DNA of 64,000 bases from Paraconexibacter algicola (lineage in GTDB: Bacteria; Actinomycetota; Thermoleophilia; Solirubrobacterales; Solirubrobacteraceae), in NCBI RefSeq assembly GCF_003044185.1, contig NZ_PYYB01000001.1:1942978-2006977 (forward strand), given 5' to 3'. Of this stretch, positions 2,807 to 49,553 are shown one piece after another. Every line of letters starts with the position of its first letter. The first letter of the stretch is position 1. The translations under genes were made by a program, and so were the position numbers. The notes under the pieces are model-generated. The model made no database searches. It was not told the DNA's origin and saw only the letters and a program-made list of their open reading frames with translations.

Positions 2807-3709
2807 ATGGTCACCTTCCCTCTCCACATCTGGGAGCTCGTGCTGGCCCAGTCCGGGGTCGTCACCGCCGCCCAGCTGCGCGCCGGCGGCGTCGCGCTCG
2901 CCGACGTCCGCCGTGCCCGCCGCGCCGGGCTGCTGCGTCCGCTGCACGGAGGGACCGGCGTGTACGCCACCTTCCCCGAGGGCCTCGCGCCGCCCGACGC
3001 GGCGCTGCGCGCCGCGGTCCTCGCCTGCGGCCCGGACGTCGTGCTCTCCCACCAGACCGCGGCCGCACGCTGGCAGCTCGTGGCCCACGGACCCCCGGGG
3101 CTCATCGAGCTCGCCTCGCGCCGGGAGCTGACGCCGCCCGAGGGCATCTGGATCCACCGATCGCGGCTACGCGCGGCCGAGGTCGTGCCGCTCGACGGCT
3201 TCGCGATCACGACGGTCGAGCGGACGCTGCTCGACATCGCGATCAGGTTCGCGCCCGCCGCGCTGGACCGGGCGCTGCGCGAGGCCGAGTTCCACCACGG
3301 CACGCGGCCGGAGGATCTCGCCGCCGTCCTGCGCCGTGGTCACCGGGGCAGCGCGAGGCTCCGGGCGGCGATCGAGCGGCACGTCCCCGGATGGGGGGAG
3401 ATGCGCAGCCGGCTCGAGCGGCGGTTCCGCAGCCTGCTGGTCCGCCACGGGATCCCGCTCCCACGGCGCAACGTGACCCTCGGACCGTGGATCGTCGACT
3501 GCCTCTGGCCGGAGCTCGGCGTCGTCGTCGAGCTCGACGGGCGTCAGCACGCGCGCCCCGGGCAGGCGGCGGTCGACGCCCGGCGGGACCTGTGGCTGCG
3601 CGCCAACGGCTACGTCGTCCTGCGGTACACGTGGCAGCAGGTGACCGAGGACTCGGACGCGGTCGTCGCCGATCTCCTCGCGGCGCTCGGCGCCCGGCGT
3701 TCTGGGTGA
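2807..3709 (+). CDS. DUF559 / AbiEi-like winged-helix protein with Vsr-like nuclease-fold C-terminus
   Basis: The protein has 300 residues. The N-terminal third (LVLAQSGVVTAAQLRAGG...RRARRAGLL) resembles the winged-helix region of AbiEi-type antitoxin proteins. The C-terminal third carries the DUF559 pattern: VELDGRQHA, then D..RD, then GYVVLRYTWQQV, related to very-short-patch-repair endonuclease folds. Such proteins are numerous in actinobacteria and their role is unproven. ATG 2807 is preferred over GTG 2792 because homologue-like sequence begins near it. The last three bases of the gene (TGA 3707-3709) are part of the 42-bp element copy 3, so the repeat overlaps the coding end (GRRSG). 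The gene is a singleton between repeat copies. Confidence 0.8.
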   Translation: MVTFPLHIWELVLAQSGVVTAAQLRAGGVALADVRRARRAGLLRPLHGGTGVYATFPEGLAPPDAALRAAVLACGPDVVLSHQTAAARWQLVAHGPPGLIELASRRELTPPEGIWIHRSRLRAAEVVPLDGFAITTVERTLLDIAIRFAPAALDRALREAEFHHGTRPEDLAAVLRRGHRGSARLRAAIERHVPGWGEMRSRLERRFRSLLVRHGIPLPRRNVTLGPWIVDCLWPELGVVVELDGRQHARPGQAAVDARRDLWLRANGYVVLRYTWQQVTEDSDAVVADLLAALGARRSG

Positions 3710-44351: not shown

Positions 44352-45421
44352 CCCGCCGGCGCGTCCTCACGGTCCTGCTGCTCGGCGGGATCCTGCTCGG
44401 GGCGCTGCTGGTCGCCGCGCTGGTGCGCGAGTCGAACGTCGGCGGGGAGCCCAACGGGCCGGTGCCGCTGCGCGAGCTCGCCGCACGCGATGGGCGCGAC
44501 GTCGGCACCGCGGTCCCCGGCCCGGCGCTGAAGAACTACGCCGGCTACCGCGAGGAGCTCGCGCGCGAGTTCTCGACGCTGACGCCCGAGAACGCGATGA
44601 AGTGGGACGCGATCGAGCCGGAGCGCGGGACGCTGAACTGGACCGACGCCGACGCCGCGGTCGACTTCGCGCGGCGGCACGACATGGCGGTCCGCGGGCA
44701 CACGCTGATCTGGCACAACCAGATCCCGCGGTGGCTGACGGACGGCGGCTTCTCCCGCGAGCAGCTCGACGGCATCGTCCGCGAGCACGTGCGCCGGACC
44801 GTCGGCCGGTACCGGGGACGCGTGTTCGAGTGGGACGTCCTCAACGAGCTGACCGCCGACGACGGCTCCGGCTACCGCAGGTCCCTCTGGTCCGACACGC
44901 TCGGCCCCGACTTCCCCGCCCGGGTGCTGCGCTGGGCGCGCGAGGCGGACCCGGACGCGAAGCTCTACTGGAACGAGATCGCCGCGGACGGCATCAGCGC
45001 CAAGAGCGACCGCTTCTACGCGTTCGCGAAGGCGCTCAAGGCGGCGGGCGCGCCCCTGGACGGCGTCGGGTTCCAGGCGCACTTCAACCTCGACGGCGTT
45101 CCGAAGGGCTTCGAGGAGAACCTGCGTCGCTTCTCCGACCTCGGCCTCGACGTGCGCGTGACCGAGCTGGACGTGGCGCTTCAGCTGCCCGCCGACGACA
45201 CCGCCCGGGCCCGCCAGGCGGACATCTACGCGCAGGTCGTGCGCGCCTGCCGGCGCGTCGACCGCTGCAAGGGCATCACGGTGTGGGGCTTCACCGACCG
45301 GTTCTCGTGGATCCCGGAGACGCAGCCGGGCTTCGGCGACGCGACGCTGCTGGACCGCGAGCTGGAGCCCAAGCCCGCCTACCGGGCGTTCGCCGCCGCG
45401 CTGCAGGCGCCGACCCCCTGA
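44348..45421 (+). CDS. Membrane-anchored GH10 glycoside hydrolase (xylanase family), probable CTG start
   Basis: This GH10 barrel hydrolyses beta-1,4-xylan-type chains by a retaining mechanism. The acid/base is E167 (WDVLNE) and the nucleophile E273 (VTELD); HTLIWHNQIPRWL and YWNEIAADG are family motifs. A single N-terminal TM (VLTVLLLGGILLGALLVAALV) anchors it outside the cytoplasm. No ATG, GTG or TTG lies in frame between the preceding gene's stop and the TM. CTG 44348 overlaps that stop as CTGA and is the simplest start; otherwise a start some 46 codons upstream within the transferase gene (GTG near 44209) is needed. Placed in a glycan export locus, it may trim or cut the polymer. Confidence 0.88.
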   Translation: MTRRRVLTVLLLGGILLGALLVAALVRESNVGGEPNGPVPLRELAARDGRDVGTAVPGPALKNYAGYREELAREFSTLTPENAMKWDAIEPERGTLNWTDADAAVDFARRHDMAVRGHTLIWHNQIPRWLTDGGFSREQLDGIVREHVRRTVGRYRGRVFEWDVLNELTADDGSGYRRSLWSDTLGPDFPARVLRWAREADPDAKLYWNEIAADGISAKSDRFYAFAKALKAAGAPLDGVGFQAHFNLDGVPKGFEENLRRFSDLGLDVRVTELDVALQLPADDTARARQADIYAQVVRACRRVDRCKGITVWGFTDRFSWIPETQPGFGDATLLDRELEPKPAYRAFAAALQAPTP

Positions 45422-45454: not shown

Positions 45455-45581
45455 GCGGTGAACGGACATTTCCAGCCCCCGGAGGGGCGGAAGATGGACA
45501 GCGCGACGGGGCGATCGCCCGGAGGCGTCGCAGGCTGTCCATCTCCTGTCCCCATGAGGGCTGGAAATGTCCGTTCACCGC
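45455..45581. repeat. Long nested hairpin element, copy A (127 bp)
   Basis: A perfect 23-bp outer stem pairs 45455-45477 with 45559-45581; its core is GTGAACGGACATTTCCAGCC. An inner stem pairs AGATGGACAGC (45492-45502) with GCTGTCCATCT (45534-45544). The loop itself folds: GCGAC (45503-45507) with GTCGC (45527-45531) around palindrome GGGCGATCGCCC. It sits exactly between two convergent genes, 34 nt after the GH10 stop and 32 nt after the GT4 stop, so it could terminate both. Copy B is at 49315-49445. Confidence 0.85.
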
Positions 45582-45612: not shown

Positions 45613-46647
45613 TCAGCGGGCGGCGGCGGTCCGCTCGATCGCCGCGCGGAGCGCGACCGCGGTGTGCTCGTGGTCGAAGGCGCCGACGCGCGCGGCGCCG
45701 CGGCGGACGAGCTCGTCGGACAGCTCGCGGTTCTCGAGGGCCAGGGCGACGAGCTCGGCGACGACGGCCAGGTCGCGGTCCTCGACGAGCAGCGCCGCGT
45801 CGCCGGCCACGGACGGGATGCCGCCGACCGGCCGGGCGACCACCGGGGCGCCGAAGTGGAACGCCTCGAGCAGCGGGATGCAGAAGCCCTCGTGCTCGGA
45901 GAGGCAGACGAACGCCCCGGCGGACGCGTACCGCGTGGCGAGCTCGTCCGCCGTGAGCGACGACTCGATCGTCACCGCGCCGGGCGCGAGCTGGTCCGCG
46001 AGACCGGCGAGCGCGGCACGGTAGTTCGGGTTCAGCGGCTCCCCGACGAGGCGCAGCGTCGCGTCCGGCAGCCGGTGGCGGCGCAGCAGCGCGACCAGGC
46101 GGATCAGCTCGTCCTGCCGCTTGTGCGGGGCGAGCCGCCCGACGAACAGCAGCTCGTGCGGTCGGCGCCCCGCGTCCGGCGCCGGGGTGCCGAGCGTCCC
46201 GGGGTCGAACAGGATCGGCACGACGACGTCGCTGCCGAGCTCGGCGGCGTTGTACGGCGACACGCCCGCGACGACGTCGGCGCGGGCCGCGTACTCCGGC
46301 AGCTGCGCGCGGCCGAGCTGGCAGTGGATCGCCACGGTCGGCTCGTAGTCCCAGAACCAGCGGGCCGGGGTGACGTTGTGGGAGAGCAGGAGCGTGCGGT
46401 TGGGCAGGTCCAGCACGCGGCGCAGCCGCGGGGCGTACGCGGAGTAGTGCACGAGCAGCAGGGCGTCCGGCGTCGGCGTGCCGAGCGCGCGCAGCGGCCG
46501 CACCTCGGAGGCGATCCGCGGGTCGATGTGCCCGGCGAAGATGTCCCCGGACCACCCCCACGAGCGGAACAGCGTGCGGAACTCGCGCGCCTGCGTCGTG
46601 ACCGCGTCGTGCGGTCCGGCGCCGCTCAGGACCTGGTGGACGATCAC
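45613..46647 (-). CDS. GT4 family glycosyltransferase
   Basis: The 344-residue GT-B enzyme starts at GTG 46647 (VIVHQVLSGAGPHDAVT). The C-terminal nucleotide-sugar domain shows ELLFVGRLAPHKRQDELIRL and FVCLSEHEGFCIPLLEAFHFGAPVVARPVGGIPSVAGDAALLV, the EX7E motif of GT4 enzymes. It likely adds a hexose to the lipid-linked repeat unit. The start overlaps the previous gene's stop (GTGA, 46644-46647), making it the last gene of the minus-strand exporter operon. Confidence 0.92.
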   Translation of the reverse strand: MIVHQVLSGAGPHDAVTTQAREFRTLFRSWGWSGDIFAGHIDPRIASEVRPLRALGTPTPDALLLVHYSAYAPRLRRVLDLPNRTLLLSHNVTPARWFWDYEPTVAIHCQLGRAQLPEYAARADVVAGVSPYNAAELGSDVVVPILFDPGTLGTPAPDAGRRPHELLFVGRLAPHKRQDELIRLVALLRRHRLPDATLRLVGEPLNPNYRAALAGLADQLAPGAVTIESSLTADELATRYASAGAFVCLSEHEGFCIPLLEAFHFGAPVVARPVGGIPSVAGDAALLVEDRDLAVVAELVALALENRELSDELVRRGAARVGAFDHEHTAVALRAAIERTAAAR

Positions 46648-47009
46648 GAGGACGCGCCCCGCAGCCGCGCGTTCTCCTCCTCGAGCGTGCGCACCCGGTC
46701 CTCGAGCTCGGCGAGGTGGACGAGCAGGTGCAGGTGGAAGCGGCTCTCCTGCGAGGTCAGCTCGTTGAAGTGCTGCTGCAGGCCGCGCAGCAGCAGCCGC
46801 TTCAGCCACGTGATCGGGGCGCCCAGGCGACGGGTCGAGCGCATCAGCGTCTCGTCGGGCTCGATCACCGCCCACTCCATCAGCGTCTCGGTCGACACGC
46901 GGTCCGTCGGCTCGATCGCGAAGCCCTCCAGCGCGTCCGCGTAGGCGCCGCGCTCCCGGGCGGCGGCGGCCGCGGTGCGCGCGGCGTCCAGGGCGTCCTC
47001 GGGCCGCAT
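46644..47009 (-). CDS. Small helical / coiled-coil protein of the polysaccharide export operon
   Basis: The product has 121 residues. Its C-terminal half (PITWLKRLLLRGLQQHFNELTSQESRFHLHLLVHLAELEDRVRTLEEENARLRG) is a helix passing into a short coiled coil. Similar stretches occur at the N-terminus of glycosyltransferases or methyltransferases next to Wzt genes; here it is a free-standing protein. It overlaps wzt by one base (TGATG) and the GT4 gene by GTGA. A scaffold or length-control role is possible but unproven. Confidence 0.75.
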   Translation of the reverse strand: MRPEDALDAARTAAAAARERGAYADALEGFAIEPTDRVSTETLMEWAVIEPDETLMRSTRRLGAPITWLKRLLLRGLQQHFNELTSQESRFHLHLLVHLAELEDRVRTLEEENARLRGASS

Positions 47010-49303: not shown

Positions 49304-49314
49304 TCCCGGAGGGC

Positions 49315-49445
49315 GTGAACGGACATTTCCAGCCCTCAGGGGGGCGGAAGATGGACAGCCTCGGGCCGTCGTTGCCCGTGATCGCCCTCGAGGCCGCCGA
49401 GCTGTCCATCTCCCGCCCCTCCCGGGGCTGGAAATGTCCGTTCAC
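49315..49445. repeat. Long nested hairpin element, copy B (131 bp)
   Basis: A 21-bp perfect outer stem pairs 49315-49335 with 49425-49445; its first 20 bases are the same as in copy A (GTGAACGGACATTTCCAGCC). The inner stem AGATGGACAGC (49349-49359) with GCTGTCCATCT (49401-49411) is also unchanged. Between stems, GGGGCGG (49341-49347) faces CCGCCCC (49413-49419); this segment differs from copy A yet still pairs. The loop has a different sequence. It lies between rpiA and the kinase gene on the same strand. Confidence 0.85.
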
Positions 49446-49553
49446 CCCGCCGGGGGGCCGGGGGGCCGGGGGCAAGCCCGGGGTGGGCGGGCGCCGGGGG
49501 CCGGGAACGCCGCGCGCGCTAGCGCGCCGGGTGCGGTGGGTAGGGTCCGGCGG

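Follow-up and report, generated by a model that had tools for sequence, protein, structure and literature searches.

Between the convergent genes for a GH10 xylanase and a group-1 glycosyltransferase in Paraconexibacter algicola lies a long nested hairpin, hereafter copy A. It was analyzed within a window of 64,000 nt from this high-GC (74%) genome. Both genes lie outside the element, and their stops, at 45421 (+) and 45613 (−), are 34 and 32 nt away from it, as the first-pass annotation had stated. The outer arms, 45455-45478 paired with 45558-45581, are perfect, also as stated there, and measure 24 bp, one more than the 23 bp given. The annotated 11-bp inner stem was found as described (45492-45502 with 45534-45544). 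Among perfect inverted repeats with a span below 350 nt across 464 kb (the window and another 400 kb of this genome), copy A is the longest. By perfect-arm length a second element of the window, copy B, ranks third and an element at C1:1923k fourth; a Markov control yielded no perfect inverted repeat longer than 15 bp.

Members of the family were collected from the 4.74-Mb genome by a pattern search together with R1, a model of the repeat unit's sequence. About 17 units were found, dispersed over 11 loci on three contigs (Table 1). Each unit forms an imperfect palindrome of 44-46 nt, GGTGAACGGACATTTCCAGCCCC-tgga-GGGGCGGGAGATGGACAG, whose consensus folds with 12 pairs. Six loci are doublets, two in the window (A and B) and four elsewhere in the genome, with the same inverted arrangement of units in 6/6; two more are solo units, and three are symmetric palindromes composed of two inner halves. 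The recurrence of the arms in copy B, proposed earlier, holds, and the presence of common arms in six doublets excludes chance. Copy B has an outer arm of 21 bp and is not placed between convergent genes: its neighbours are rpiA and, downstream on that same strand, a BadF-type ATPase gene. The solo unit at C1:1114k, which scores 43 bits with R1 versus 53-60 for units in doublets, is more diverged than any of them, in line with what has been reported of REPINs (PMC3116915). This does not hold for the second solo unit, at C1:1316k.

Two side observations were made at these loci. The solo unit at C1:1316k is adjoined by a second nested hairpin with 23-bp perfect arms (L227:15983-16072, i.e. G000:C1:1315983-1316072), which shares its convergent gene pair and is single-copy, with no other close match to its core in this genome. 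In its longest reading, a glyoxalase-family gene shares part of its N-terminal region with the left unit of the C1:1923k doublet (L016:3338-3349); the true start may be downstream.

Table 1. Repeat elements and the genes flanking copy A. Positions without a prefix refer to the window; C1, C2 and C3 are contigs of the same genome (G000).
Feature	Position	Strand	Basis
GH10 xylanase gene (start provisional)	44363..45421	+	Pfam PF00331, E 8e-98
Copy A, complete doublet (two inverted units and spacer)	45455..45581	.	24-bp perfect arms; alignment with five other doublets
Copy A left unit, REP-like palindrome, loop type GGA	45457..45502	+	alignment of units; R1 match G000:C1:1988436-1988479
Copy A variable spacer, unrelated to remaining spacers	45503..45533	.	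spacer comparison
Copy A right unit, inverted, loop type TCx	45534..45579	-	alignment of units; R1 match G000:C1:1988511-1988556
Group-1 glycosyltransferase gene (start provisional)	45613..46710	-	Pfam PF00534, E 7e-26
Copy B, complete doublet	49315..49445	.	aligned with other doublets; perfect-arm search
Copy B left unit	49314..49359	+	alignment of units; R1 match G000:C1:1992291-1992336
Copy B right unit	49401..49447	-	alignment of units; best R1 match, E 9.5e-16
Doublet	C1:613462-613607		
Doublet	C1:1923339-1923502		
Doublet	C2:139714-139830		
Doublet	C3:257146-257364		
Solo unit	C1:1316077-1316122		
Solo unit	C1:1114364-1114409		
Symmetric palindrome, two inner halves	C3:53278-53317		
Symmetric palindrome, two inner halves	C1:416500-416538		
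Symmetric palindrome, two inner halves	C1:2232242-2232280		

In the alignment of units the arms have a mean column identity of 88%. The unit's outer 18 bases and its inner ATGGACAG are near-invariant, in contrast to the variable tip that separates them. Spacers of the six doublets are 33, 33, 43, 62, 80 and 135 nt long, and their comparison revealed no clear likeness, with 2 of 15 pairs at p <0.05. The first-pass annotation had offered a structured RNA as one of three options, and the highly stable fold predicted for all six doublets (−91 to −170 kcal/mol) is what a conserved RNA selected as one long nested hairpin would have. However, the covariation term of the doublet consensus fold is unfavourable (+2.44), and arms differ by a mean of 6.0 bases within a doublet, as much as between doublets (5.1), so that they do not track each other and no compensatory change is seen. 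Given also the unrelated spacers and an Rfam scan of the window that returned nothing, selection of one long hairpin is not supported and we consider it very improbable. Conserved arms, unrelated spacers and the lack of compensation between arms suggest instead that it is the sequence of each unit, rather than the long hairpin itself, on which conservation acts.

Two ideas about the make-up of doublets were rejected. Two loop subtypes, roughly TGGA and TCCx, are combined in 5/6 doublets, but random pairing gives this about 1/4 of the time by a hand count, and obligate heterodimers were dropped. Capture of host sequence in the spacers was also considered; the longest spacer occurs only once in the genome, and no clear likeness exists among the spacers.

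A membrane-protein gene contains the solo unit at C1:1114k, which is read in frame. When aligned with homologues from related genomes, the protein shows a 24-residue insert at this place, ATPRPPGGERTFTAPPGAGDGQPG or the same shifted by a residue or two, that is absent in 18/18 homologues. Since the insert is 72 nt long and the unit 46 nt, extra sequence arrived with the unit or stayed behind. An in-frame unit within an insert that 18 homologues lack points to mobility of the family, as judged by sequence comparison; the evidence concerns one solo unit inside a gene, not a doublet. Of the options raised at first pass, a non-autonomous mobile element is therefore the best supported, by the dispersed species-specific family together with this gene insertion. 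Empty sites of the doublets were sought by comparing DNA with genomes of the same genus, but these are too diverged, and no orthologous junction could be aligned. No target-site duplication was visible by eye in the flanks of the six doublets, where GC-rich sequence limits the test. A homologue of the membrane protein in another genome (L205, genome G012) carries a different insert of ~26 residues, RSWKTAGGPASSGHGPTASLPPTRRF, at almost the same site, which may be another repeat.

The other ten loci are intergenic. Convergent junctions hold seven of them (A, C2:139k, C3:257k, C1:1316k and all three symmetric palindromes), one-strand junctions two (B and C1:1923k) and a divergent junction one (C1:613k). 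The 7/10 share compares with a 19% baseline, the fraction of junction bases between convergent genes by rough gene calls in 464 kb (p ~6e-4; the value is approximate, as the copies were classed by hand whereas the baseline relied on a GC3 rule). A similar leaning towards convergent and unidirectional junctions has been published for REPs (PMC3733652). This excess, and the convergent setting of all the symmetric palindromes, would suit bidirectional terminators or 3′ stabilisers whose similarity is kept by function and not by mobility. Against such a reading, one copy is an insertion inside coding sequence, one lies between divergent genes and two between genes of one strand. In addition, the copy A hairpin is followed by GC-rich sequence with no T-run on either strand, terminators do not require 18-24 identical bases, and no similar copies were found in the related genomes searched. 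As a full explanation, the terminator role proposed at first pass leaves the divergent and in-gene copies unexplained, and we regard it as quite unlikely. As a secondary role it fares better: the 7/10 convergent copies make a putative function as 3′ hairpins between convergent genes probable. Landing of the element in an existing terminator was rejected, because complementarity outside the arms (−38.6 kcal/mol) was no better than that of mismatched flanks (−38.4 kcal/mol).

R1 searches that covered 145 further genomes from the family and 231 from the order revealed no convincing copy, with the stricter filters applied in searches over more than 40 genomes, under which weak matches may be lost. 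A weak half-match in G126 (E 8e-4), one in 232 genomes, was taken as chance. Scans of GTDB release 220 contigs and IMG/VR for exact 16-mers gave isolated single matches only. These were not accepted as real copies: the GTDB count is about that expected by chance, and the IMG/VR matches are single as well. Further copies, sought in both places at the suggestion of the first-pass annotation, thus exist in the genome but were not found in relatives. By these searches the repeat family is species-specific, and its absence from relatives is as expected of a recently spread family.

In anatomy the family is most like REPINs, which likewise consist of two inverted palindromic units (here in all six doublets) with a less conserved spacer and form a long single-strand hairpin (Bertels and Rainey 2011, PMC3116915). 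Solo units, dispersal in one genome and a mostly extragenic location (here 10/11 loci) are also common to both, and the short palindromic unit is a general REP feature. REPs usually exceed 100 copies (PMC2817692); the common consensus found here is carried by only ~17 units. Further differences from REPINs are the spacer length, which is not conserved here, the unrelated sequence, and the lack of a detected RAYT gene. The GTAG/CGTC-tagged REPs are similarly short palindromes, either single or in inverted dimers whose spacers mostly measure 20-100 bp; they are enriched at convergent and unidirectional junctions and sometimes found inside genes (Di Nocera 2013, PMC3733652), where dimers encode 20-30 residues (PMC3733652). 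In contrast to these, the conserved unit here has no GTAG or CGTC tag, and many of the published families are far more abundant (PMC3733652). Rickettsia palindromic elements also are palindromic repeats in frame within protein genes (PMC3733652); they differ in sequence, and here only 1/11 loci is intragenic.

A search for the Y1 transposase domain (Y1_Tnp, PF01797), expected of an associated RAYT gene, gave no match in this genome, whose assembly is 95.6% complete; controls were positive. We therefore do not file the family as a RAYT-associated REPIN. The domain was matched in 16/81 genomes of the family, and loss of the gene while repeats persist is documented for E. coli strains (PMC3733652). 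A REPIN-like population could also spread without a RAYT, with an unknown trans-acting enzyme recognising each 44-46-nt unit and copying pairs together with arbitrary intervening sequence, which we hold to be rather unlikely.

Another scenario, in our view unlikely, is that a classical (DDE) insertion sequence left MITE-like remnants, the units being its terminal inverted repeats, which outlasted the transposase gene, and the spacers its remaining interior. Nested-repeat MITEs (NEMIS/Correia, ERIC) are roughly 100-200 bp long, have long terminal inverted repeats and fold as RNA; the elements here resemble them in these respects, but have interiors unrelated between copies and no visible target duplication. 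Long inverted arms around unrelated interiors of varied length and a genome without a Y1 transposase match agree with an origin as insertion sequence remnants. Against it, no target-site duplication is visible at the six doublets. The unit is itself an imperfect palindrome, and solo units and half-unit symmetric palindromes suit REPs better than insertion sequence ends. All strong R1 matches are accounted for; none flanks a long element, and no full-length insertion sequence with these ends is among them.

We conclude that the repeats are probably a small species-specific family of REP/REPIN (BIME) type palindromes, in which inverted pairs around an arbitrary spacer make up the nested hairpins A and B. 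Copies are dispersed, arms are conserved around unrelated spacers, and one copy is inserted in frame in a gene. Counting against the REP-type assignment are the search for a Y1 transposase that gave no match, the small number of units, the lack of a GTAG/CGTC tag, of a visible target-site duplication and of an alignable empty site for a doublet, and the fact that the in-gene insert involves a solo unit and is longer than that unit. Under the REP-type reading, a trans-acting transposase would copy the units in the form of single-stranded hairpins; it would probably be a Y1/HUH enzyme of the RAYT kind, either lost from the assembly or never in it. Copies landing just past stop codons between convergent genes would be tolerated, and would probably serve as 3′ hairpins for both transcripts. 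This puts a REP-doublet-like family into a lineage where Y1 transposases occur sporadically; in at least two relatives, palindromes of other kinds flank the Y1 genes. Being very small and confined to one species, with one insertion located by means of homologues, the population lends itself to asking how these repeats start and whether they outlast their transposase.

The Y1 transposase of a same-genus genome, G005, was considered as the source of the family and rejected, the palindrome flanking it being AAAGGGGTCAGACCCCTTT-like and unrelated. This gene (L247; a 223-aa ORF at 2327-2998) is accompanied by inverted palindromes of GGGGTCAG type at 2191-2225 and 2981-3006. Inverted flanking palindromes are described for TIR-associated tyrosine transposases. 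In genome G155, a Y1 transposase region (L250) contains repeated palindromes of AAAGAGGGACTGTCCC type.
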